DNA of 36,890 bases from a virus. A program made the translations under genes and the position numbers. This document shows positions 14,624-26,836 of this stretch, piece after piece (the first letter of the stretch is position 1; every line of letters begins with the position of its first letter). Where the stretch lies: positions 1 to 36,890 of IMG/VR virus record IMGVR_UViG_3300050821_023959; one strand, written 5' to 3'. The notes under the pieces are model-generated. The model was not told where the DNA came from and made no database searches. It saw nothing but the letters and a program-made list of their open reading frames with translations.

Positions 14624-15073
14624 TTACGACCAGGTGATCGTGATTGGACCGCTCACCTTGATCGAAGGCTTTGCCAACACGGCTTTGTCGAACTTGAAAT
14701 CGAGATCGTCGCCGGAAATGTAGCCCTGGAATACGAACGTCGATCCATCCTGGCTGGTGAGCTTCCACCACTCAAGTGACGTCGTCGGGCTGTTCTGGAG
14801 ACTCGCAGCCACGTGCTGCTGCGTCGGATCCGCGGGACTGAGAACCATTCCGAAGCTCACGTCGCCGGCGTCGACCATGGTTTTGATGTACTCCTGGTAA
14901 ACGGCGCCGCCGCCTCCCGCGGTAGGGCTGTCGAAGTTCGTAATGTCATCCGTCTTGATCTTCCCCACAGGAAGCTTCACGTCGGTGACCTGGGCAACGT
15001 TGGTATAGCTCGATCCGGACGTGCCCCCGTTTGCGAGTTTGGTACCAAAGCCGGGAACGGCGATGGAAGTCAT
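14624..15073 (-). CDS. major tail tube protein
   Basis: This 149-residue protein starts MTSIAVPGFGTKLANGGTSG, with a strong AAGGAG site. Tail tube features are TNVAQVTDVKLPVGKIKTDD, SFGMVLSPADPTQQHV, WWKLTSQDGSTFVFQGYISG and a closing DKAVLAKPSIKVSGPITITW. It directly precedes the chaperone pair, the standard place for the tube subunit. The next gene upstream carries a related domain, so the phage has two tube-type proteins. Confidence 0.85.
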   Translation of the reverse strand: MTSIAVPGFGTKLANGGTSGSSYTNVAQVTDVKLPVGKIKTDDITNFDSPTAGGGGAVYQEYIKTMVDAGDVSFGMVLSPADPTQQHVAASLQNSPTTSLEWWKLTSQDGSTFVFQGYISGDDLDFKFDKAVLAKPSIKVSGPITITWS

Positions 15074-15106: not shown

Positions 15107-15844
15107 TCAGGCAACGCCGAGCGGACCGGTGAGCGCGCCGGCGACACGAATCTTCGCCGAGAACAGCACGGCCTTCATGGTGTCGATGTCGAACGGTTTG
15201 AACTCACTCACATAGCCCTGCCAGCTCCACATCGTGATGCCGTCGGCGAGTAGCAGCTGCCAGTAGACGAGTGTCAGGTTTGCGTGAAGCTGGCCCAGCG
15301 TAAGCTGTGAGCTGTTTTGCGGACTGAGCACCCCATCAATCTGTGCCTCGCCTGAGCTGAAGCGCACCGGCAGCGGCGCGTCACCATTGCCCGCGGTGAG
15401 AATGTTGGTCTGATCGACGAAGGCTTGTTTCGACTGCGGCCCCTGAAATTTCCGGATCTGCGCCACGCTGGTGTAATGCACTCCGTCGAGCGAGAACGAA
15501 AGCCGCGATCCGACGCCTGGAATCCCAGTGCTCGGCAGCGACGTAGACAAACCTGACGAGACCAGAATGGTAGAAATTGCCCCGCTCGAAACGACGAGGG
15601 CAAATGTGGCGCCATCCGGCGCCTGAATCTGAATGGTCGACGGGGATCCACTGGAGGAATTCACCTGCAGTGCGCCCGTGGTCAGCACACTCAATGCCCA
15701 GATCGCCGAGGTCACCGTATCCTCGAGCAGAATCGACGCCGGCCCGGTCGGACCGCTCACGGGTGTCGTCGTATAGGCACCGGCATTGGTCACGCCAAGC
15801 TGCCAGACCTGATTCGAAGAATCCTTGAGATACGTTGCGCTCAT
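15107..15844 (-). CDS. second tail-tube-type protein with repeated N-terminal domain
   Basis: This 245-residue protein starts MSATYLKDSSNQVWQLGVTN. Residues about 109-245 align with the neighbouring tube protein: GVGSRLSFSLDGVHYTSVAQ, SGEAQIDGVLSPQNSSQLTL, YWQLLLADGITMWSWQGYVS, AKIRVAGALTG. Residues 1-100 hold three repeats of a short beta motif, D....W.L.V..G.L (near 7-26, 41-61 and 76-96), which could decorate the tube surface. The ATG is 10 bases after the stop of the 900-residue gene and lacks a strong ribosome binding site. It may be a minor tube form or a tube extension. Confidence 0.7.
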   Translation of the reverse strand: MSATYLKDSSNQVWQLGVTNAGAYTTTPVSGPTGPASILLEDTVTSAIWALSVLTTGALQVNSSSGSPSTIQIQAPDGATFALVVSSGAISTILVSSGLSTSLPSTGIPGVGSRLSFSLDGVHYTSVAQIRKFQGPQSKQAFVDQTNILTAGNGDAPLPVRFSSGEAQIDGVLSPQNSSQLTLGQLHANLTLVYWQLLLADGITMWSWQGYVSEFKPFDIDTMKAVLFSAKIRVAGALTGPLGVA

Positions 15845-15854
15845 CGTGGAGAGA

Positions 15855-18557
15855 TCAGTACCAGGGCCAGGTAGCCGGGACGCATGAAGCAGGCTGCAGC
15901 GCGCCGCGAATAATATTCGAACTTGTGATCGCGCATCCGTTGGCGTCAATCGTGGGAGTGCAGGGGCTGCGCGTGCCTGCACCGCAGGTTTGCGATCCTC
16001 CCGAAGTTGTGCTCTGCACCCATGACGACGTCGGCGCGTAGTTTGCCGAACTAGCCGAAACTCCCGATCCCACGTTGGTATAGACATTCGCCAAAGTCAG
16101 AGCTGTGTTGAGAACCGAACTCTGGTTGTCGCACCCGCCGGAAGCGCTGAAGTTCGCTTCGAGCGCGTTTGGCACCAGAAGAGCGGTGATGCTGGTCCAG
16201 TAGTTGGGCGTCATGCTGGTGCAGCCCGGATTTCCTCCGCCACCGTAAGAATTAAGCGCCGCCCCTCCGTAGCCATGCGTGTTCTGCTGCGGACGCGACA
16301 GCAAAATATTCATGAAATTATTGTTGCCATTGTTCACAACTGCGGATCCACCCGCCAAGAGTCCGGTCGATCCGCAGTTGTCGAGCGTGTTGTTTGAGAT
16401 GTTCTCGTTGGCGCTCGAATCGTAGGCCTGAATGCACTCCGACGTGATGTCATGCACCAGGTTCGACCAGACGTCCGCACCCGGCGTGGCAGCATATATC
16501 CCGTGGCTGTAGTTGCAGAAGGGATTGACGTTGATGCCCGCACCGATGTTGAACACTTCGTTTCCATAGATGACAGCGTGAACCATCGAGTAGGCGTGAT
16601 AGCCAGCTTCAACGGCGCCGGTCAGAGAACAGCCAGTGCCCGTCCCGGTGTTCGCAGTGGACCCCAGGTCATGCACTCGATTCCACAGGATACGCAGCTC
16701 AGTAGAAGTACCCTGGCAGTTGGGCGCGGTTCCTTGCGAATCGCAACGAGCCATGATGCCGCCGATCGCCGCCTGGTACACGGTGGTCGAGCCCACCGTG
16801 TCGCCAACGTCGAACCCCATCACGTCCATGTAGGAATTGTCACCAAGAACAATTCCTTCAGTCACCGGAACGCTAGGTCGCAGCAAACAGGTTTTGAATC
16901 CATCGCATAGGAGACGAAACCTACGAGAGGCCGACACTCCACCGATAACGCCGTCATCCATGTTGACCCCCACTGTCCAAATAGTGCCCGGTGGAGAGGT
17001 CGGGGCGTGCTCAGTATAGGTAGTCGGTTGCGAGTGGCAAATGCTGCCGCCCGCACCGATGCCCGCGGCCTCGACCACCGCAATGCAGCGCTTGATGGTC
17101 AGGCAGGCATCGGTCGTGTTATTCGTGCAGCCATGAGCATCGCTGGCTCCGCCGGCCAGAGGGTAGGTGTAATAGTTGGTGGGCGGTATGCCAGTGAACG
17201 TCGGGGCAGCGGTACCAGTTACGGACTTAAAAGCCACGTCAGTGATGAGCCAGGCTGAGCTGGTGCTGAGCCCCATCGTCACAGCGGTCGCGCCCGCGAC
17301 GTTGAACACCCCGTCCTCGACGCCGTTACCAACGGCATCAGAATAGCGGTAGGTGTAACCGGTCCCTGCGGCGTTGGCAGTGCCCGTAATCACCGAAGTG
17401 AACGCCACCACCATGTCGCTCGTCGTCGTGGTGATGGAGTCGGTCGCAGTTGTGCCCGACGCTCCCGTTCCACCGGGGCCGTGAGCGTCGATCGCTCCGC
17501 AGCCGGTGCACTCCTCGACGTCAAGGTGAGGAGATGTCACGGTGCCGCTGAAAGTGACCGTGATGTCATTGTTGCTGCTGGCGGTGATTCCACTGGCAAC
17601 GTAGATCTGTTGCCACATGCCATTCCCGTTCACTCGTCCCATGCCTGAATCCGCATAGGTGTTTCCGGCGCCGTCTACGACGCTGGTGATGGTGAAGGCA
17701 GATTGACCGCCGACATCGAGAATGATCGTGTCGCCGGACTGTTGCGGCCCCAGGCAATTCACCGAGATACGGCTGCCGCTCGGGATCGAGGTCGAACACG
17801 TTCCAGACGAGTTGTAGGTGCCGGATACCGCGGTGATCATCGGCGTGCCGGCGCTCACCCCGGTCACAAGTCCGGAAGTGGAAACCGTGCCCAGCGAAGT
17901 GTTCGAAGAAAACCAGCTCAGGCCCGTGCAGGGAGTGGTCGAGGTGGAGTTGTTGTAATTGCAGGTCGCGGTTTCCTGCTGCTGGCAGGGCAATCCGCAG
18001 CTGGAGGTCGGCGGCGCGAGCGTGATCGAAGTCAATGAGACCGGATTGGTTGAGCCCGTGCCTGAAAGACTGACCGTCTGAGGAGAGTTCGGAGCGCTGG
18101 TGGAAATAGTCAACGTAGCCGGCAGGGATCCGCTTGCGAGCGGCGAAAACGTCACCGACACCAGGCAGCTCTGCTGCTGAGCCAGCGAAGTAGGGCAATT
18201 GTTTGTCTGCGTGAAATCGAGCGAGCCGGTTCCGCTGAAGGCGAATGAGCTGAAAGTAAACGAGCTGAGACCGGTATTCGTCACCGTCACGGTCTGAGAC
18301 GCCGACGAGGCGCCCACAGCAGTGTTGGGAAACGTAAGACTCGATGGACTCACGCCCTCGCCCGCAGCGACGCAACCGGTGCACGTGCCATTGATAATGA
18401 CGTTGTTGAAGGTCTGCGTGCCACCGAAATTGTTGTTCCCGGTATAGGTCTGATTCAGGTTCGTCATTGCGCCGGTGTTCTGGGCAAAGACCGAACCCGC
18501 GATCGCCAGAACAAATGCGATGAGCTGGATCCCGATTTTCACTTTGCGAGTCATCAT
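15855..18557 (-). CDS. large secreted-type mosaic protein: signal peptide, Ig-like domains, beta-helix
   Basis: This 900-residue protein begins with a signal peptide (KIGIQLIAFVLAIAGSVFA, cleavage V-F-A). Next come a Hydin/SPD-2 'choice-of-anchor' Ig domain (about 70-168: VSPSSLTFPNTAVGASSASQ, TVTNTGLSS, SVTFSPLASGS), a Big_2-like domain (about 172-245: SWFSSNTSLGTVSTSGLVTG), a beta-sandwich (about 265-450) and a right-handed beta-helix (about 480-800; YGNEVFNIGAGINVNPF, NISNNTLDNCGSTGL). Beta-helices occur in phage tailspikes and polysaccharide lyases. The Ig domains are typical of acidobacterial surface proteins. AGGAG precedes the tandem ATGs, which overlap the tail terminator stop. A signal peptide in a tail-operon gene is unexpected. 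Confidence 0.75.
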   Translation of the reverse strand: MMTRKVKIGIQLIAFVLAIAGSVFAQNTGAMTNLNQTYTGNNNFGGTQTFNNVIINGTCTGCVAAGEGVSPSSLTFPNTAVGASSASQTVTVTNTGLSSFTFSSFAFSGTGSLDFTQTNNCPTSLAQQQSCLVSVTFSPLASGSLPATLTISTSAPNSPQTVSLSGTGSTNPVSLTSITLAPPTSSCGLPCQQQETATCNYNNSTSTTPCTGLSWFSSNTSLGTVSTSGLVTGVSAGTPMITAVSGTYNSSGTCSTSIPSGSRISVNCLGPQQSGDTIILDVGGQSAFTITSVVDGAGNTYADSGMGRVNGNGMWQQIYVASGITASSNNDITVTFSGTVTSPHLDVEECTGCGAIDAHGPGGTGASGTTATDSITTTTSDMVVAFTSVITGTANAAGTGYTYRYSDAVGNGVEDGVFNVAGATAVTMGLSTSSAWLITDVAFKSVTGTAAPTFTGIPPTNYYTYPLAGGASDAHGCTNNTTDACLTIKRCIAVVEAAGIGAGGSICHSQPTTYTEHAPTSPPGTIWTVGVNMDDGVIGGVSASRRFRLLCDGFKTCLLRPSVPVTEGIVLGDNSYMDVMGFDVGDTVGSTTVYQAAIGGIMARCDSQGTAPNCQGTSTELRILWNRVHDLGSTANTGTGTGCSLTGAVEAGYHAYSMVHAVIYGNEVFNIGAGINVNPFCNYSHGIYAATPGADVWSNLVHDITSECIQAYDSSANENISNNTLDNCGSTGLLAGGSAVVNNGNNNFMNILLSRPQQNTHGYGGAALNSYGGGGNPGCTSMTPNYWTSITALLVPNALEANFSASGGCDNQSSVLNTALTLANVYTNVGSGVSASSANYAPTSSWVQSTTSGGSQTCGAGTRSPCTPTIDANGCAITSSNIIRGALQPASCVPATWPWY

Positions 18558-19006
18558 GCTCCTGGCTCCGTGTAGAAGGCCTTCAGGCGCAGCAGCCGGC
18601 GAAAGACATATCCACCACCGCCGACTTCATAGGGTTCGTCCGCATCCATCGTCACTTGGAAGAATGCGATCGTGGTGCCGTCGCTCAGCGCGCCGCTGAA
18701 ATTCGCAAGCGAGGCCTTTACTGCGTTCGAGAGCTGCTGCGCCGTGAGTTGATCCGGTGCGCAGCTATCGAACTGAAATTCACCTTCACTCAGGCCGCTC
18801 GGGCCATCGAACGAGTGCGCGGCCGGCGGCGCATCGGGCGTGTGGATGACGATGTAGCTGGCCGGGGGCTGCTTGTCCGCTCTCGATAAATACACCGCGA
18901 ACTGCGCGACGCCGCCGATCGACGGCAACGGCGAGAGCAGCTTCTGAACTCCAGCCGCGGCCGGGCTTTGCGTCAGAAAGTTGTAAAGGCCTCCGGCGAC
19001 CGGCAT
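18554..19006 (-). CDS. tail terminator / completion protein (DUF3168-like)
   Basis: This 150-residue protein starts MPVAGGLYNFLTQSPAAAGV. The pattern fits the DUF3168/gpU-like group: PASYIVIHTPDAP, EGEFQFDSCAPDQLTAQQLS, NAVKASLANFSGALSDGTTI and a final RRLLRLKAFYTEP strand. Such proteins cap the tail and join it to the head. It is boxed between two large exported-type genes: its ATG overlaps a small upstream frame (TGATG) and its stop overlaps the 900-residue gene. Confidence 0.72.
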   Translation of the reverse strand: MPVAGGLYNFLTQSPAAAGVQKLLSPLPSIGGVAQFAVYLSRADKQPPASYIVIHTPDAPPAAHSFDGPSGLSEGEFQFDSCAPDQLTAQQLSNAVKASLANFSGALSDGTTIAFFQVTMDADEPYEVGGGGYVFRRLLRLKAFYTEPGA

Positions 19007-19113
19007 CAGGCTCCGTAGTAGACCGGAAAAGCTTCAGGCTCACGCAGCCGGAAGTTGCGCGCTGGATCTGGAGCGCCCGGAGTTTGTCGTTTGCTCACGG
19101 GAAGCTCGGGCAT
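19006..19113 (-). CDS. possible 35-residue protein
   Basis: The frame MPELPVSKRQTPGAPDPARN continues FRLREPEAFPVYYGA. It fills the gap between the 805-residue gene and the tail terminator, starts six bases after the upstream stop with GGTGA in front, and its stop overlaps the next ATG as TGATG. The tight fit argues for translation, but the peptide is short and Pro-rich with no recognised relative. Confidence 0.4.
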   Translation of the reverse strand: MPELPVSKRQTPGAPDPARNFRLREPEAFPVYYGA

Positions 19114-19118
19114 GAGGT

Positions 19119-21536
19119 TCACCAACATGTCACCATTACATGCGGGGCAGTGAAAGCATCCGAAGTGCCAACTGTCATCGTGAGATTAAATTTGTCAGCC
19201 TTCGCGAACGCCAATGTTGCCGCGTCCGTTTCGTGGTGATTCGCCCCCGCCGCAACCACAGAGGTTGCGGAGGTTGACTGGGTAGCATTATTCAGCGTGA
19301 ACGTCACGTTGTTGGTGGCGTTGGCCGTCCCGAGTACATAGATGCTGCACTTCCCGGCCTGCGTAGCGAATGGAGCCTCGAAGCTGTTCCCGGCAGAGGT
19401 CGTCAGGGTCGCGCAAACGCTTGAAGTAACCGAGCCGTTATTGAAGGGCTGTATCCAGTAGGTTCCAGCCGTGCCGTTCACCCCGCTCGTACACTGCGCA
19501 GTGAACGAGAAGGAACCAGGCGGCACGTTGAGCGCGGTCGGAATCGAACTGACCGCACTAGAACAGTCGGACAACGCCAAAGCTGTTCCAATCGAAGTCT
19601 GAGCGAAAACGTACCAGATGTTGTTCTCAGTGCTCACGTTGCAATCAGAATTTGAAACCAGATTGTTCTTCAGCATCTTGGTGCTGGGAGTGCCCGAGAT
19701 GGTGGACATATTCGCAGCACTGAAGTTCATCACGTTCGATGAACCGTTCGCCGAACCTAGCTCGAAGTTGAAGGTGGTGTCATTGTTGCTGTCGCCGTTA
19801 GTCCAGGTTGCCCCCTGAGTCTGGGTGCTCCCATCCTCGATCCACGTTTCGTTGTGCGTTGCCATGCCGCCGATTTCCTGGCAGATGATGGCGTACTCGC
19901 AGTGGTAGCCGATGAACATGTTAGCTGGGCCGACCTGGAAATACCCCAACCCCTCGGTTAACTCTGGCAGGATTGCGTGAGTGCCTGAATTCTGCACATC
20001 TTTGAGCGACATCGTGCTGCCGATCACGTTATAAATGCTCTGACTGTTGGTTCCCATCGCAATGCCGTCGCTGGCCAGGCCCACGAAAGTTTTACTCATC
20101 GTTGAACTGGCAACCGAAGAGGAGTACGCGAGGACTGCATAAGTACACGGAGAACAGCCGGTGTTCGGCATGATGGCGGCAGTTCCCGCCATCATCTGAG
20201 TCCCGGCCTGGTAGAGCGTTACCGCTCCACCGCTGACCGCTGCATTCATCCCATAGCAACCGTTGGTGTGGATCTCGCAGTTCTCAGCTTGAAAGTTGTG
20301 GAAGATGCGCGTGTACGGCCCTGAGTGCGAAGCGCCGCCTTTGTCACCGCCGTAGGCATTCGGCGAAGTGTTGTTACCAACGAACATGCGAAAACCGTAT
20401 ACCGTCCCGTTGAACCCCTGCACGTCGGTAAGGTAGGTGCCCTCTTCACCAGCACCATTCACGAACTCGGCGCACGCGTAGGTGTAGGCGCATGATAGCG
20501 TCCACTTCTCCATTCCCGAGTGATAGAAGGTAGAACCATTGGTCGGCCCTTGAGTGAACGCTACCAGCGCAGTTTCCAGGTACGCGACACCGCCGCACGT
20601 TGCGTTGCAAGCAACCATTGAAGTCGTGTTGACGACAAAGATGGTCCCGCCGCCGGTCGGCTCCTGCTTAATCTCGTAGCAATGCCCGTTCGCTGCCGAA
20701 ACTTGCTCTTTACCTGGACACAGAAAGCGCCCGGCGAATGTCGATGGAGGCGTGCCGCTGAGTGCCCCTGACAAGGTAATAGTGGAGGTCCCGCCAGAGG
20801 CCGCCGTGATTGACGCGATAGTAGCCTGCGGCATATTCGCGGAGGAGTTGAAGTAGCCTGCACACGGGGCTCCATCTGAATTAGTCGGGTAAGTGTTATC
20901 CATGAGCAGCGGATTGCAGGCGACCAGTTCGACGTTGGTGACGTTGTTGTTGACCGTGCTGCCCGCCTGCCCAACGCCATATATCTTCACGTCACTTTTC
21001 CAGGTTCCCCACTGTACCCCTGTGTAGAGTCGCCCTCGGCTCTGCCGCCCGCGAAAATAAATTTCCCCAGCAAAGTTGCTTGCTACTGGCATCTCGGAGC
21101 AATATGCTTTGCGCGGAACCGTCGCGATCACCACGCCACCCGAGCCATTGCCGTTTATAAGGCCAGTTTCAGCCGCGACCGCTTCGACACAAACGTCCTC
21201 GGCGCCCGAGCCGGTAAGTGTTGGGAACTGATCGGCAGCCGCATAAAGAGGATCGCTAGTTAGTCGTCCTGCGGCAGTGAAAACCGCAATCCATCCTTGC
21301 GTTCCAACGGCTTGCCCAACTGCGCTTTGCACCGGTGCGCTCTGCGAGGCCACCATCGTGGCGATGCAATAGATAAGAGCAATCACCATCGCCGACTTTT
21401 GCGCTTTACTTAACGGAACATCCCATCCGATCCACAAGCGCCACGCCAGCATTGCCGCAACAATCAATACGCAGATCGCGAGGCCAAGGAAGGCCGATAC
21501 GAACGCAATCATGTGCAACACGAAAACTTGAATCAT
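19119..21536 (-). CDS. membrane-anchored large beta-helix-type protein
   Basis: This 805-residue protein starts MIQVFVLHMIAFVSAFLGLA; AGGAG nine bases upstream fixes the ATG. Two N-terminal membrane segments are visible (about 3-35 and 46-64, the second SAMVIALIYCIATMVASQSA). The rest is a Gly/Ser/Thr/Asn- and Cys-rich secreted-type sequence with beta-helix character (WTLSCAYTYACAEFVNGAGE, FQAENCEIHTNGCYGMNAAV) and a beta-sandwich end. It resembles tailspike-like or surface polysaccharide-binding proteins without a recognisable catalytic motif. It lies between the 320-residue protein and the tail terminator in the same operon. Confidence 0.68.
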   Translation of the reverse strand: MIQVFVLHMIAFVSAFLGLAICVLIVAAMLAWRLWIGWDVPLSKAQKSAMVIALIYCIATMVASQSAPVQSAVGQAVGTQGWIAVFTAAGRLTSDPLYAAADQFPTLTGSGAEDVCVEAVAAETGLINGNGSGGVVIATVPRKAYCSEMPVASNFAGEIYFRGRQSRGRLYTGVQWGTWKSDVKIYGVGQAGSTVNNNVTNVELVACNPLLMDNTYPTNSDGAPCAGYFNSSANMPQATIASITAASGGTSTITLSGALSGTPPSTFAGRFLCPGKEQVSAANGHCYEIKQEPTGGGTIFVVNTTSMVACNATCGGVAYLETALVAFTQGPTNGSTFYHSGMEKWTLSCAYTYACAEFVNGAGEEGTYLTDVQGFNGTVYGFRMFVGNNTSPNAYGGDKGGASHSGPYTRIFHNFQAENCEIHTNGCYGMNAAVSGGAVTLYQAGTQMMAGTAAIMPNTGCSPCTYAVLAYSSSVASSTMSKTFVGLASDGIAMGTNSQSIYNVIGSTMSLKDVQNSGTHAILPELTEGLGYFQVGPANMFIGYHCEYAIICQEIGGMATHNETWIEDGSTQTQGATWTNGDSNNDTTFNFELGSANGSSNVMNFSAANMSTISGTPSTKMLKNNLVSNSDCNVSTENNIWYVFAQTSIGTALALSDCSSAVSSIPTALNVPPGSFSFTAQCTSGVNGTAGTYWIQPFNNGSVTSSVCATLTTSAGNSFEAPFATQAGKCSIYVLGTANATNNVTFTLNNATQSTSATSVVAAGANHHETDAATLAFAKADKFNLTMTVGTSDAFTAPHVMVTCW

Positions 21537-21547
21537 TAGAAAGTCTC

Positions 21548-22510
21548 CTAGTTTCCAAAGAAGGCCACAGATGCCCCTGTTGTGGTGGCGATCACAAATA
21601 TCAGGTTCGTGTTTGAGAGCTGACCGCACACGCTGTCCCCTGCATTCAGCTGATATCCGGTCGAGGTGGTGACTCCGCTAAATCCGACGTACACAGGAAT
21701 CGTGTTGGCCGACAAAGCCTTCACGCACACTCCGTGGACCGCGTTGCTCGGAAGGGCTACGGCGGATGCGGTAACAGCTTGCTGATTGGTCACTCCTGAG
21801 CCAAAGCCCGAGGGCTGCGTCGGCGTCGTGGGCGCGGTTGCAAGGCTGACCGGCTGTGTCACTCCGGAGCCATCTGTCTTCACCGGCGTCATGCTGGCGA
21901 TGCCCTGGATGCTCTGCACGCTTGCATTCGGGCTACCAGCCGTGCCAGGAGGAACCTGATTCGCGGCCGTCGCCGCACTAGTGGGCAGGGGAAGAGAAGT
22001 AGCTGACACAGGCTGCGTCGCGGGAAAGTTAGTGACCGCGACGTTAGAGGCCGCCCCGCTCGATAGCGCTGGGTTCTCGGTATACCCCAGCAGAACAATC
22101 GTCACATGCCCAGTTCCAGTAATAGCGGGAGTGAGCTGACCAAAGTTAGTCGGCCCTACAGCCGCGGGTGTCACATAACTTCCAGGTGAAGCGCACGATC
22201 CGATCGTGCCCGCACTCACGAGACCACCAACAGAAAAACTGCTGCCCGTTGCCGAGGAGTCCACACTCACCGAGCACGCGGACACCGTACCATCAGGAAC
22301 AAAGACAAGCTTCCAATAAAGAATGCCTTTCGCGTTGAAGGCTCCACTCGCACCAGATGTGGATGAAAACACAAAGCTTTGCCCCAGTTGCCAGGGCGTG
22401 CCCGGCACTTGTGAGAGCGGAGTTCCTTGCTGAGCCTGTCCATTCGGGACAAGACAGAGCAACAGGAAAACGAGTAGCCCCGCGGCCGTGTACCATCGAT
22501 TCGATTTCAT
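21548..22510 (-). CDS. exported phage structural-type protein
   Basis: This 320-residue protein starts MKSNRWYTAAGLLVFLLLCL, a signal peptide ending PNGQA, with AAAGGA six bases before the ATG. The middle has VAVTNFPATQPVSATSLPLP and SAATAANQ, motifs common in phage tail/fibre-type proteins. The C-terminal 85 residues (VALPSNAVHGVCVKALSANT, IPVYVGFSGVTTSTGYQLNA) match a short beta domain frequent in phage structural proteins that I recognise but cannot name. It therefore looks like a virion protein carrying an export signal. The downstream RBS overlaps its TAG stop. Confidence 0.7.
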   Translation of the reverse strand: MKSNRWYTAAGLLVFLLLCLVPNGQAQQGTPLSQVPGTPWQLGQSFVFSSTSGASGAFNAKGILYWKLVFVPDGTVSACSVSVDSSATGSSFSVGGLVSAGTIGSCASPGSYVTPAAVGPTNFGQLTPAITGTGHVTIVLLGYTENPALSSGAASNVAVTNFPATQPVSATSLPLPTSAATAANQVPPGTAGSPNASVQSIQGIASMTPVKTDGSGVTQPVSLATAPTTPTQPSGFGSGVTNQQAVTASAVALPSNAVHGVCVKALSANTIPVYVGFSGVTTSTGYQLNAGDSVCGQLSNTNLIFVIATTTGASVAFFGN

Positions 22511-22520
22511 AAGAGTCCTT

Positions 22521-22916
22521 TCAGTTCGCTCCGCCCGCGTTCTGATTGATTTCGAAGCAGTAGACCTTGAGCTGCCACTTCTGGCCATCGGGATCATCGA
22601 TTGTGGCCACCTGCAGCGTGCGCGTTGCACCGGCTTCCGAAACTTCGACCGTCATGTTTTCCTGCACGCCCAGCTGGTAGTTCATGATCAGAAGGTCAGT
22701 GACCTTCTGCGCAATCTGCTGCGCCTTGTCGAGTTCGGCGCCGGCGATGGCATAGAGCGCCACCCAGACCGCGGGAAATGCCGGCGAGGGCGGACCGGCT
22801 TTTCCCTGCAGGTCGCGGGCGCCTGGCGAATAAAACGTGACCAGGCGATTCATGGCGCCGAGCGGGGCGTACTCGCCCGCGCGCGGCGCCCGGTTGCTGA
22901 GACGTGGCAGTGGCAC
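22521..22916 (-). CDS. head-tail joining (head closure) protein
   Basis: This 131-residue protein has the head-tail adaptor pattern: GAMNRLVTFYSPGARDLQGK, PAFPAVWVALYAIAGAELDK, LIMNYQLGVQENMTVEV and a final QKWQLKVYCFEINQ. It joins the connector to the tail. The start codon is GTG one base past the upstream stop; an ATG 21 codons later (MNRLVTF) is nearer to the usual family start but has no ribosome binding site. Confidence 0.8.
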   Translation of the reverse strand: MPLPRLSNRAPRAGEYAPLGAMNRLVTFYSPGARDLQGKAGPPSPAFPAVWVALYAIAGAELDKAQQIAQKVTDLLIMNYQLGVQENMTVEVSEAGATRTLQVATIDDPDGQKWQLKVYCFEINQNAGGAN

Positions 22917-22917
22917 T

Positions 22918-23379
22918 TCAGTTCGTCTGGATCACTGCGAACTTGACCGCGGCATTGCTGCAGGTCATCGAAATCGCGCCGCTCGATTGCCAGCCCGTAA
23001 GGTTCTTCATTTGCACCGCGGCATACGTGCCCGCGGCCATCGAGTAGCTGGTAAGCGAAGTATCGAGGCGGTTCAAAGCGTCGGCCACGCTGGTAACGGT
23101 GAACGTGTACGTGCTGCCTCCACTGTTCTGCACGAGCAGAATTTCACGGCCGGTGGAAGTGAAGCTGTTGCCATTCACCGCATCGCAAGCGGCTAAGGTA
23201 ATCGCCAACGAGCCGGCTGTGATCGGCGCATTTACGCTACCGTTGATCAGCAGGACCTGCGTGCTGAGCAACGTCGGCGTAGCGAAGGCCGTCGACACGA
23301 GCATCAGCGTCATGGCAATGACGCATGTGATCTTTTTCAGTAACGACGGTTTGTTGAGAGCGGTTTGCTGCGTCTTCAT
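22918..23379 (-). CDS. exported small head-region structural-type protein
   Basis: This 153-residue protein starts MKTQQTALNKPSLLKKITCV and has a classical signal peptide (IAMTLMLVSTAFA, cleavage A-F-A); an AGGAGA site fixes this start. The mature part (CDAVNGNSFTSTGREILLVQ, TYTFTVTSVADALNRLDTSL, KNLTGWQSSGAISM, SNAAVKFAVIQTN) matches a small beta protein that in other phages sits in the same place, between connector and head closure, and normally begins without an export signal (from recollection). Its presence on an exported protein is odd. Confidence 0.72.
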   Translation of the reverse strand: MKTQQTALNKPSLLKKITCVIAMTLMLVSTAFATPTLLSTQVLLINGSVNAPITAGSLAITLAACDAVNGNSFTSTGREILLVQNSGGSTYTFTVTSVADALNRLDTSLTSYSMAAGTYAAVQMKNLTGWQSSGAISMTCSNAAVKFAVIQTN

Positions 23380-23405
23380 GGGTGAGTTCTCCTGTAAAAA
23401 CGGGG

Positions 23406-24299
23406 TTAGCCGCGGGTGCCGGCTTTGATATTGACCTTCCAGCGATAGAGCAGCCGCATCAGCGTGGGCGATTGAGCAACGGCGCCGGCGACAATCGGCT
23501 CGCGGTTGTAGTAGCTATCAGCAATAAGCAACCGCATTGCCTGACGCAACGCAGCGGGCGCCGCTTTTCCGTTCGCGCCGTAGCCGGCGATGAAGTGAAT
23601 CTGCACGGCGTTTGGAACGTAGAGCACCGGCGGCCAGTTTCCGCCCGGCAGCGGAAAAATTCTCGGAGGTGCTGAGTCGGCGTCATAAACGAAATCACCT
23701 GAATCTGGTACCGGACCCATGCATGTCCAGGTCAGCATGCCGTCAGTTGTGGGATTGCCCACTCCCGTGGCCCATGTGGGTTGCGTCGCTCCGGACATTG
23801 AGGTCGAGTCTTCATCGCCCTGACCAACGGCCGTCACAACCTGCAGGTTGCCGTTCGGGTCCTCGGTCTGGTCGCTGAGGTTGTATTCGTGCAGCGGCTG
23901 CCAGTTAAAGAGCGCCGGGTATAGCGCATCGATGTTGCCCGTCGTGCTGTCGCTGTACGTGATCTTTGTGACCTGCTGCAGCGGCGATCGCAACAGCTTG
24001 ATCATTTGCGAATAGTTCCACAGCGTGGTGGAGTACCGCGGCAGCGAGTAATAGCTGGGCGGATACGCCATTTGCGACGTGACGCTGTCGACGAAGTAGG
24101 GAAACGAATCGAGCGATTGCCGGTATCCCTTGTTCACGATGGACCGGCCGGTAAAGCCCTCGACCTCTTCGCGCGCCGTCTGAATCAGATCCTGAATATA
24201 GGAGTCGTCATTGTTGACGCTCACCTTCAGAAAGTTCTTCACATCGGCAAGCACCAACGGCTCGGCAACGGGCGCGATCTCTTCAACGATATAAGCCAT
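23406..24299 (-). CDS. head-tail connector (gp6-like) with inserted domain
   Basis: This 297-residue protein begins MAYIVEEIAPVAEPLVLADV, then KNFLKVSVNNDDSYIQDLIQ, TAREEVEGFTGRSIV, the standard start of connector proteins that sit under the portal. The end (VQIHFIAGYGANGKAAPAAL, RQAMRLLIADSYYNRE) also fits. Residues about 115-205 are an insertion containing SGATQPTWATGVGNPTTDGM, LTWTCMG, a motif also seen twice in the tail hub. Typical connectors are about 100-200 residues, so the insertion explains the length. Confidence 0.82.
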   Translation of the reverse strand: MAYIVEEIAPVAEPLVLADVKNFLKVSVNNDDSYIQDLIQTAREEVEGFTGRSIVNKGYRQSLDSFPYFVDSVTSQMAYPPSYYSLPRYSTTLWNYSQMIKLLRSPLQQVTKITYSDSTTGNIDALYPALFNWQPLHEYNLSDQTEDPNGNLQVVTAVGQGDEDSTSMSGATQPTWATGVGNPTTDGMLTWTCMGPVPDSGDFVYDADSAPPRIFPLPGGNWPPVLYVPNAVQIHFIAGYGANGKAAPAALRQAMRLLIADSYYNREPIVAGAVAQSPTLMRLLYRWKVNIKAGTRG

Positions 24300-24306
24300 G
24301 GCTCAG

Positions 24307-24519
24307 CTAGCCGACACGTTTGCGCGAGAACACCGACTTATGTACCGGACTCTGCGCCAGTGCAACAGCTCGCTCAGCGCTCGGGGCCACAGCCATGGTC
24401 TTCACGGCGCCCACTTCCTCGGCCATACCGCTCGAGATCATGGCGCGCGCGACGTCAGGCACCATCTCTGTAACCTGACCCGTGGCACGAATGCGGATAT
24501 TCACGTAGCCCTGGTTCAT
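24307..24519 (-). CDS. small conserved head-region protein
   Basis: This 70-residue protein starts MNQGYVNIRIRATGQVTEMV, with AAGGAG nine bases upstream. PDVARAMISSGMAEEV is a recurring pattern in small phage proteins located between capsid and connector genes. Function is unknown. It follows the decoration-like gene after a 138-bp gap with a hairpin and precedes the connector by seven bases. Confidence 0.75.
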   Translation of the reverse strand: MNQGYVNIRIRATGQVTEMVPDVARAMISSGMAEEVGAVKTMAVAPSAERAVALAQSPVHKSVFSRKRVG

Positions 24520-24553
24520 TTGAAAAGGCTCCTTTTCGTTTCAAGGAAGGGAG

Positions 24554-24611
24554 GCAGGGGCCGGCCCGCGCGCCGAAGGTCGCACAACAGGACACGGTCC
24601 ACGGCCCCTGC
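24554..24611. repeat. 10-bp perfect inverted repeat in head-gene gap
   Basis: GCAGGGGCCG (24554-24563) and CGGCCCCTGC (24602-24611) are perfect complements separated by 38 bases. On the minus-strand transcript this forms a GC-rich hairpin between the decoration-like gene and the next small gene. No T-run follows, so it is more likely a stability or processing element than a terminator. Confidence 0.45.
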
Positions 24612-24657
24612 AGCCCACGCACGGCGCCGTTAAGCTCCGGGTGAGCAAACTTACCAA

Positions 24658-25209
24658 CTAACTCAGCGTGGTTCCGCCACCATCCGTGTACCAAATACCG
24701 TTGAAAGCGGTAAGAACAATCTTTGCTCCAACAGTGCCAGGAAAAGTGGCGATGTGTTTATTTCCGTTGATTTTGTTAGCCGCAGTGGTCACGGTGTGGG
24801 CGTGGCCACCGAGATCCTGAATCTCGATGGAAAGCCCATCGTTTCCACCTTGCGAAGGATCGCCGGCCACAGGGTTGCCAAGCGTGCAGGCGTCAACTCC
24901 AGCAGTGTTGATAAGAGTCTTTCCACTGATCGGGGTCGCGCCTCCAGCTGAACTCAATGCCGAGAGTCCTCCGCCTCCGCCCTGGATCGCGTCGGTGGTA
25001 CCGGTGACAATCTCGAATTGTGCTCGAAGATTCTCCGCCTGCGCCGTAACCGTATCCTGGTCAGGCGAGGTGGACGGAATTAGCGGCTGAGGATGCGCCG
25101 AAGTGATTAAGGTGCCGAACAGAGCACCGAAGGCCAGCATTGCAGCCACGATTTTGACAGTCGCAACCGCGCCGCCGTGAAACAGCAGTGCGCCGAGAAT
25201 GGGTGACAT
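24658..25209 (-). CDS. decoration-like protein with N-terminal membrane anchor/signal
   Basis: This 183-residue protein starts MSPILGALLFHGGAVATVKI; AGGAGA eight bases upstream fixes the ATG. A hydrophobic segment (about 16-37, VKIVAAMLAFGALFGTLITS) comes first. The rest contains GGATPISGKTLINTAGVDAC, GGNDGLSIEIQDLGGHAHTV, NKINGNKHIATFPGTVGAKI and VLTAFNGIWYTDGG, a pattern I know from short beta-rich proteins encoded next to phage capsids (decoration-like). The membrane segment is not expected for a capsid-binding protein. Confidence 0.65.
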   Translation of the reverse strand: MSPILGALLFHGGAVATVKIVAAMLAFGALFGTLITSAHPQPLIPSTSPDQDTVTAQAENLRAQFEIVTGTTDAIQGGGGGLSALSSAGGATPISGKTLINTAGVDACTLGNPVAGDPSQGGNDGLSIEIQDLGGHAHTVTTAANKINGNKHIATFPGTVGAKIVLTAFNGIWYTDGGGTTLS

Positions 25210-25294: not shown

Positions 25295-26836
25295 CTAGGC
25301 CGCGGCCTGCTGCAGGAAGCACACCGGATGTGTGCCGGCATCAAGCAAGTTGCCGTCATAGCGTGCGAAGCCGAGGTAGCCGACCTGGCCGTAATCAGCG
25401 AAGCGCTCTTGCAGCGTGATCACACCCAGCTCCTTCACCCGGCGAATCAGATACTTCTTGTGATCGCCGAAGGTAACGGTCTTCGCGTTGAGCGCGATGG
25501 TGGGCATATCATTGTTGATCCAGTACGGATAGTTGTTCAGGCGATCGGGCTCGCCGGCAACCATCGTCTGTTTCCACAGCGGGTGACCGTACTTATCGAG
25601 CAGCCGCTTCACAGCGCGCAAAGTCTGATCATGAAACATATAGCTTGCGCCCTTGCGATAGGCCGGATCCACCGTGTGCTCGAGATCGGTAAGATCCTGC
25701 GAGCCGATCGACGTTCCGCCGGTTTCCGCACCTCCGGTGTTTGCCGAGCTGCCGGCAGCCAGCAACGCCGTGCCATAGACCACACCGGCGCTCGCGAGCT
25801 GCGCCGCGGCGCAATTGGCGACGACAGCAGTCAGCAAGCCGGTGGGTTCCACAGGATTCGCACTGTTGCCGTTGCCCACCGTAAACTTGGTGTTCAGGAT
25901 TCGGCCCAGGCGAATGGCGAACTTGTTGCGCAGATACGGCGCGATCGCGAAGGCAGAGTCCTGCAGCAATTCGAGCGAGGCCTTCACCATCTTGGTGGAG
26001 AACTTCTCGGCGCCGAACAGAATCTGACCGATCGTAACGTCTGCGGTGGATACCTGCTTACCTTCGCCGACGATTTCACCAGTGTTAGTGGTGTCGTTGT
26101 CGGTAGGGTAGGGAAGCGGTTGTCCGGTAGCCGTGTCCATGATCTCGCTGGACATCAGCATCGAGCCGTACCACTTCATTGCCTCTTCGACCTCGTATAC
26201 GAAGCCGCGGGGCACGAAATAGCCGCCCAGCGAATTGGTGCCGATACCCATGTCGCGCTTCTCACGATCGGAGATGGAAAACTTTCCATCACCGATACCG
26301 AGCAGCCGGAACTCTTCGACCTGGCCCAGCATGATGGCGCGGTCCTCGCCAGAGCAGAGGCCCACGTCGCCTCGAAGCACAGCGATCGAATGGTTACGGA
26401 AAGCATCCCAGTAGCGCTCTTCCATTTCCTCTATCTGGTTGCGAACCTCCGCGGCCACATGTTCCAGAGCATGATTGCGAACGATCAGCTCACCGCGGGC
26501 ATCACGGGTCACGGAGACACCATGGCGCTTCAGCGAACGGTTGTAGGCAATCACGGCCGAGCGCTTGTCGCCAGAGGCGGCAGTGATCGGAGCTTCACGG
26601 CGCCCGCTGGGATCGACCAGGTTGAGACGGGTCTCGCGATTCAGATCGGCCTGCAGAGCGTCACGCTCAGAGACCAGAACATCGATCTCGTCGAGAATCT
26701 TGTCCATTTTGATTTTTGCGTCGCGCACCTCGGTTTCTTTTTTGGAGTCGCGGAGGATGACGCGCAGCGGCTGCAGGTCGCCTTCGTTGCGCTTGGCGAT
26801 CTGTTCGTTCAGTTCGCGGATTCTTTGCAGTGACAT
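25295..26836 (-). CDS. major capsid protein, HK97 fold
   Basis: This 513-residue protein has a charged, coiled-coil N-terminal part (about 1-180) that would act as scaffold and be removed. The HK97-type coat domain starts near TNSLGGYFVPRGFVYEVEEA and continues with PYPTDNDTTNTGEIVGEGKQ, AEKFSTKMVKASLELLQDSA, FMFHDQTLRAVKRLL-type helices and VITLQERFADYGQVGYLGFA. The protease gene is directly upstream, consistent with processing of the N-terminal part. AAGGAAA precedes the ATG. The capsid length including the delta region is in the usual range. Confidence 0.93.
   Translation of the reverse strand: MSLQRIRELNEQIAKRNEGDLQPLRVILRDSKKETEVRDAKIKMDKILDEIDVLVSERDALQADLNRETRLNLVDPSGRREAPITAASGDKRSAVIAYNRSLKRHGVSVTRDARGELIVRNHALEHVAAEVRNQIEEMEERYWDAFRNHSIAVLRGDVGLCSGEDRAIMLGQVEEFRLLGIGDGKFSISDREKRDMGIGTNSLGGYFVPRGFVYEVEEAMKWYGSMLMSSEIMDTATGQPLPYPTDNDTTNTGEIVGEGKQVSTADVTIGQILFGAEKFSTKMVKASLELLQDSAFAIAPYLRNKFAIRLGRILNTKFTVGNGNSANPVEPTGLLTAVVANCAAAQLASAGVVYGTALLAAGSSANTGGAETGGTSIGSQDLTDLEHTVDPAYRKGASYMFHDQTLRAVKRLLDKYGHPLWKQTMVAGEPDRLNNYPYWINNDMPTIALNAKTVTFGDHKKYLIRRVKELGVITLQERFADYGQVGYLGFARYDGNLLDAGTHPVCFLQQAAA

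Follow-up and report, generated by a model that had tools for sequence, protein, structure and literature searches.

Results

The IMG/VR virus record IMGVR_UViG_3300050821_023959, a linear sequence of 36,890 bases that we analyzed complete and refer to as the window, carries a siphophage-like late operon on its minus strand, and five genes of this operon encode proteins that begin with a predicted export signal or another hydrophobic leader. The operon comprises terminase, portal, S78 prohead protease, HK97-type capsid, gp6-like connector, and head-closure-like genes together with tail-completion-like, two tail-tube-like, lambda-type tape measure, tail-tip, and glucosaminidase endolysin genes, which in their usual order make up an HK97-type siphophage head-tail module. 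The portal was assigned from position and synteny rather than from a family search of its own. The five leader-bearing genes, designated here by the number of residues they encode, all lie on the minus strand at the places given by an earlier note on this DNA. They occur singly or, in one case, as a pair and alternate with leaderless neck and tail genes in the order capsid, 183, connector, 153, head closure, 320, 805, tail completion, 900, and tail tube.

Three of the five proteins carry a classical signal with a positive n-region, a hydrophobic core, and small residues at positions −3 and −1, as expected for Sec and signal peptidase I. In the 153 protein (22918..23379, flanked by the connector and head-closure genes), the signal peptide (23281..23379) is MKTQQTALNKPSLLKKITCVIAMTLMLVSTAFA followed by TP, with predicted cleavage between TAFA and TP. 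The 320 protein (21548..22510) begins with MKSNRWYTAAGLLVFLLLCLVPNGQA followed by QQ (signal peptide 22433..22510, predicted cleavage between NGQA and QQ). The 900 protein (15855..18557), a cargo protein with 30 cysteines, begins with (M)MTRKVKIGIQLIAFVLAIAGSVFA followed by QN (signal peptide 18483..18557, predicted cleavage between SVFA and QN); its gene start reads CCAGGAGC-ATGATG, and the spacing is better for the second ATG, which gives 899 residues. The VFA, GQA, and AFA sites are thus clean A-x-A-type sites, as had been claimed. The remaining two proteins lack a positive n-region. The 183 protein (24658..25209), encoded after the capsid gene, has a leader of ∼32 hydrophobic residues with a single central lysine that ends GALFG before T (25114..25209). 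The 805 protein (19119..21536), which has 24 cysteines and belongs to no known family in the Pfam and PHROG searches, begins with an anchor of two hydrophobic segments separated by a positive loop (21327..21536); from the positive-inside rule, its body is predicted to lie outside. The signal peptide or anchor that the earlier note assigned to all five proteins is therefore classical in the 153, 320, and 900 proteins but not in the 183 and 805 proteins. Ribosome binding sites of the AGGA/GGAG type precede the 183, 153, 320, and 805 starts, in agreement with that note.

All signal predictions were made with a rule of our own (a hydrophobic 11-residue window, charge, and an AxA site). When applied to four cultured phages whose capsid proteins are related, the same rule returned one classical signal among 73 structural genes. 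The window has three classical signals and two hydrophobic leaders among 11–12 genes, more than expected by chance. In related contigs, the region separating capsid and tail tube holds 613 genes, of which 112 have classical signals. Wrong start codons were rejected on the basis of the ribosome sites at the leader starts, the lack of an ATG at the body in leader-bearing forms, and purifying selection on the 153 and 320 leaders. Bacterial lipoproteins were likewise rejected, since the lipobox L-[AS]-[GA]-C is absent and the conserved cysteine of the 320 signal sits in LLLCLVP.

We then compared the block with related IMG/VR contigs (given L numbers here), in which genes were called with a codon-based caller; leaders were counted in distinct homologues whose N-terminus is covered. 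Gene order is maintained, and the leader pattern recurs in dozens of these contigs. Leaders were found in 19 of 19 homologues of the 320 family, 43 of 63 of the 153 family, and about 16 of 25 of the 183 family; the second tail-tube protein has them in 9 of 34 (9 of 20 after removal of the first paralogue) and the capsid protein in 3 of 25. None were found on the small terminase (0/20), large terminase (0/26), protease (0/32), connector (0/33), head-closure protein (0/36), or tape measure (0/12). The portal (1/31), tail-completion protein (1/30, borderline), and a chaperone-like gene (1/16) gave one match each, all internal or marginal, and the only match for the first tail tube was the second tail-tube gene of L020. 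The 153 and 320 families keep their export signal, so the homologues are not uniformly leaderless, as refutation of the earlier note would have required, although the 183 leader is missing from several relatives: in L007, L008, L009, L033, L036, and L037, the 183-type protein begins at its body. A broader search for 320-type proteins added L168, L169, and L172, whose leaders diverge in sequence and are still signals. The leader ratio of nonsynonymous to synonymous differences (pN/pS) was 0.27 in the 320 family and 0.54 in the 153 family, indicating purifying selection; it was ∼0.7 in the 183 and tail-tube leaders, indicating weak purifying selection with synonymous sites near saturation. The position of 805 is occupied in relatives by other exported or cysteine-rich proteins, and the cargo between the neck genes is highly variable and cysteine-rich. 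Separately, in L031 (1588–1674), a 320-family gene is reduced to a 45-residue open reading frame with little besides the signal peptide. Another signal-bearing protein of ∼180 residues follows the 183-type gene in L042 (5117–5668) and L081 (6453–6995); that of L042 was tested and belongs to phrog_5417.

The presence of a signal in the 153 family is accompanied by a pair of cysteines. Of 40 intact signal-bearing members, 36 have both cysteines (C65 and C140), as against none of the 25 leaderless members (Fisher p 4e-14, relatedness ignored); the four signal-bearing exceptions have neither cysteine. On the family tree, three independent contrasts agree with the association, none disagree, and one is neutral. 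The 320 protein holds one cysteine pair (C79 and C106) in its conserved N-domain. Members of the family have either of two alternative pairs: among 17, pair A occurs in 12 and pair B in 5, never mixed, with exactly two cysteines after the signal in 15. Both the coupling in the 153 family and the unmixed pairs of the 320 family point to real export with disulfide folding. Within the block, leader-type genes encode 1.82 cysteines per 100 residues and the others 0.79.

To describe the protein bodies, we used structural models and family searches. A structural model of the 153 protein had a predicted local distance difference test score (pLDDT) of 83.8 and matched, by Foldseek, leaderless phage proteins of ∼112–124 residues (best E 2.5e-6); from this model, its body is a phage-wide fold of ∼115 residues. 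The protein also matched phrog_16194, annotated tail protein (E 7e-4), and its model matched nothing in the PDB. The AlphaFold model of the 183 protein, with its leader poorly modeled, had a pLDDT of 67.9, and the best PDB matches were TSP4 of phage CBA120 (E 6e-4) and, weakly, the capsid spike of phage Pa223 (E 2e-2); as modeled, the body looks like a capsid-spike- or tailspike-type domain. In the 320 family, a conserved N-domain is joined to a C-terminal part that varies among relatives (263–1534 residues), an anatomy that appears fibre-like. Pfam recognized only HYDIN/Cep192-type and Big_2 immunoglobulin (Ig) domains in the 900 protein and nothing in nine cargo proteins; the 805 protein also had no match in a viral scan. 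In the cultured-phage collection, no relatives of the window 153, 183, 805, and 900 proteins were found, and a search of it with a leaderless 153 relative likewise gave none. Of the bodies that the earlier note likened to structural or spike proteins, those of the 183 and 153 proteins resemble phage proteins, the 320 and 805 proteins match no solved structure or known family, and Pfam gives no support for a beta-helix spike in the 805 or 900 protein.

In the 183 family, the hydrophobic leader ends in LFG or a close variant and is followed by T, taking the place of the start methionine. The same type of leader replaces the start methionine of the second tail-tube protein in nine relatives, and the body of this leader-bearing protein matches a major tail protein family of PHROG (E 4e-14). 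Leaderless relatives begin MTQIT or MTTTAYPG, so the mature N-terminus after LFG cleavage would approximate that left by methionine removal. Hydrophobic N-termini were also seen on the capsid proteins of L007, L008, L021, and L043, with an ALFG stretch before T in L043. Leader state changed about five or six times on the 183 tree and twice on the tail-tube tree; the 183 count is approximate, since L018 is mis-started and L048 was falsely scored as leader-bearing. Individual tail-tube leaders ending FG before TT are found at L012:20520–21080, L081:16108, L051:8043, L019:18846, L087:16803, L082:16869, L103:18842, L095:5738, and L028:5771. At L021:16028–17731, L043:2340–3932, and L007:2788–4536, the usual start of the capsid protein is preceded by a hydrophobic segment, and the N-terminus is positive.

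Among cultured phages, we examined Tunturi 1, 2, and 4, phages of Tunturiibacter (Acidobacteriota) (PMC11924767), as well as Tunturi 3. In the first three (L155, L145, and L147), the signal-bearing proteins include ones with the annotations tail fibre, tail spike, tail, or virion structural. In Tunturi 2, they are on gp12, gp13 (tail fibre), gp14 (pectin lyase), gp16, and gp17 (virion structural), and the portal, capsid, and scaffold have none; Tunturi 1 has near-identical gp12–gp14 and gp17, with gp14 annotated tail spike; and in Tunturi 4, gp113 and gp114 carry signals. Cysteines are abundant in these signal-bearing proteins (115 in 5,286 residues), compared with 12 in 3,798 residues of the signal-less fibre and decoration proteins of Tunturi 3. 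The gp114 of the siphovirus Tunturi 4 shares 49% identity over ∼660 residues with the C-terminal part of the exported protein of the podovirus Tunturi 2, as would be expected of the exchange typical of host-recognition proteins. These cultured acidobacterial phages, like the relatives and the covariation of the cysteine pair, bear out the earlier idea of a conserved set of virion-type proteins with export signals. The Tunturi phages belong to other podovirus and siphovirus lineages, and their exported genes are clustered rather than interleaved with neck genes; the LFG leader was not seen among the Tunturi genes examined, and a text search of PMC11924767 found no discussion of signal peptides. 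The Big_2 part of the 900 protein and the C-terminal part of Tunturi 4 gp114 are 42% identical, and this shared domain and the Tunturi parallel suggest, by analogy, an acidobacterial host for the window phage. When the 153 family was searched for in the species genome collection, two Chloroflexi-binned contigs were found, and in both the protein lacks a leader.

Discussion

Taken together, the sequences lend good support to the inference that the leader-bearing proteins of this family of uncultured soil phages are exported. Our preferred explanation, which we hold tentatively, is that all five belong on the phage surface as fibre-, spike-, or decoration-type proteins, which would be carried out by the Sec system while late genes are expressed and would fold and form disulfides in the periplasm, whereas heads and tails would be made in the cytoplasm and joined by the exported proteins once lysis opens the inner membrane. 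The sequences and models show the leaders, their conservation, the gene order, the leader-cysteine coupling, and the virion-type folds of the 153 and 183 bodies; translocation, cleavage, disulfides, virion incorporation, and timing are what we infer. We favor this explanation because leaders are confined to putative shell or surface proteins and spare packaging and neck proteins; because the 153 signal is accompanied by the cysteine pair and the 320 pairs are unmixed; because the 320 signal is retained despite sequence turnover; and because leader-type genes are richer in cysteine and the 320 family is fibre-like in anatomy. It is also favored because no separate fibre or spike gene was recognized after the tail-tip region of the window, and because the signals of Tunturi 1, 2, and 4 sit on virion-annotated proteins, with exchange of the gp114 type.

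Several points weigh against this explanation. Joining after lysis would suffer from dilution. The independent events in the 153 cysteine test are few (three with, none against, one neutral). The tail-fibre genes of Tunturi 3 are signal-less, with signals on 0 of 18 genes examined. Agrobacterium phage Milano resembles the window phage in having disulfide-rich virion surface proteins and forms these disulfides with no export signals reported (PMC10491603), which cautions against inferring export from cysteines alone; because of this, the cysteine enrichment fits an oxidizing compartment but falls short of proof.

The main rival, only a little less probable, is that the proteins coat the infected cell or otherwise act on it. 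They would then be exported but never enter the particle, working on the envelope, surface, or medium of the infected cell by blocking receptors against superinfection, opening or altering a polysaccharide layer, or aiding escape of progeny, and the late operon would supply only timing, as with moron genes. We regard this as somewhat unlikely, though it draws on the same export evidence and would suit the variable, cysteine-rich cargo among the neck genes, the Ig-like domains of the 900 protein, and the one Tunturi cargo annotated pectin lyase, for which Pfam support is weak. It accounts less well for the leaderless members of the 153 and 183 families, which have comparable operon positions and virion-type folds, and leaders on tail-tube and capsid proteins are hard to fit with envelope effectors.

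A broader version of the preferred explanation, to which we give a rather low probability, is that the particle is built in two compartments, with DNA-filled heads and necks made in the cytoplasm and other subunits added outside the inner membrane. Decoration and fibre subunits, joined in certain lineages by those of the tail tube or capsid, would be translocated and folded with disulfides, and interchangeable leaders would move between virion genes.

Alternatively, the hydrophobic leaders of the 183, tail-tube, and capsid proteins could tether building blocks to the inner membrane for assembly there, with export restricted to the proteins with classical signals. T4 prohead assembly is associated with the membrane and provides a precedent; the LFG leader stands in place of the start methionine on two unrelated virion proteins, and its cleavage would leave an N-terminus close to that of the leaderless forms. 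However, the body is predicted to lie outside, both from the central lysine that most LFG leaders contain and from the positive N-termini seen in the capsid leaders, and near relatives manage without a leader, so that we consider tethering improbable. Least probable of all is that the N-termini serve no export and reflect wrong starts or a hydrophobic docking peptide within the virion: although signal prediction was rule-based and the 183 and tail-tube leaders evolve fast, this would leave unexplained the start-codon evidence, the selection on the 320 and 153 leaders, the coupling of leader and cysteine pair, and the classical n-h-c structure.

Virion proteins with signal peptides are known from filamentous phages; the M13 coat proteins pIII and pVIII have them and insert into the membrane before assembly. 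The window phage shares such signals but is a tailed double-stranded DNA phage with terminase, portal, protease, HK97-type capsid, and tape measure, and not a single-stranded DNA phage with a Zot-like ATPase and neither terminase nor tape measure. Lambda lom and bor encode exported moron products in or near the late region. In contrast, the window has five interleaved genes, two of them with virion-type folds and leaderless relatives. Signal peptides on structural blocks of tailed phages were undescribed in the literature we covered, with subscription journals and preprints outside that coverage. In the textbook view, tailed phages assemble wholly in the cytoplasm. If our explanation is correct, a phage group that systematically exports such proteins would gain periplasmic folding and disulfides and an altered particle maturation, and some of the secreted proteins of soil viromes that lack an assignment would be explained. 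The cultured Tunturi phages allow direct testing of export.

Other Features of the Window

The neighboring operon genes, all on the minus strand, are leaderless in the window. They encode the major capsid protein (25295..26836; PF05065, E 1e-48), a conserved protein of ∼70 residues (24307..24519; leaders in 0 of 24 homologues), the gp6-like head-tail connector (23406..24299; PF05135, E 2e-9), the head-closure-like protein (22521..22916; weak phrog_8079 match and position), the tail-completion-like protein (18554..19006; PF11367, E 0.003, below cutoff), the first tail-tube-like protein (15107..15850; phrog_158, E 2.5e-7), and the second tail-tube protein (14624..15073; phrog_158, E 9.5e-13; Phage_TTP_12, E 1e-5, below cutoff). 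No distinct fibre or spike gene was recognized 3' of the tail-tip region within the window. Positions 16336–16381, inside the 900 gene, match their own opposite strand (46 bases, 78%), a possible hairpin. A serine recombinase gene lies at 1396–2007 (Resolvase N-terminal domain, E 7e-37), and because of it the phage may be temperate.

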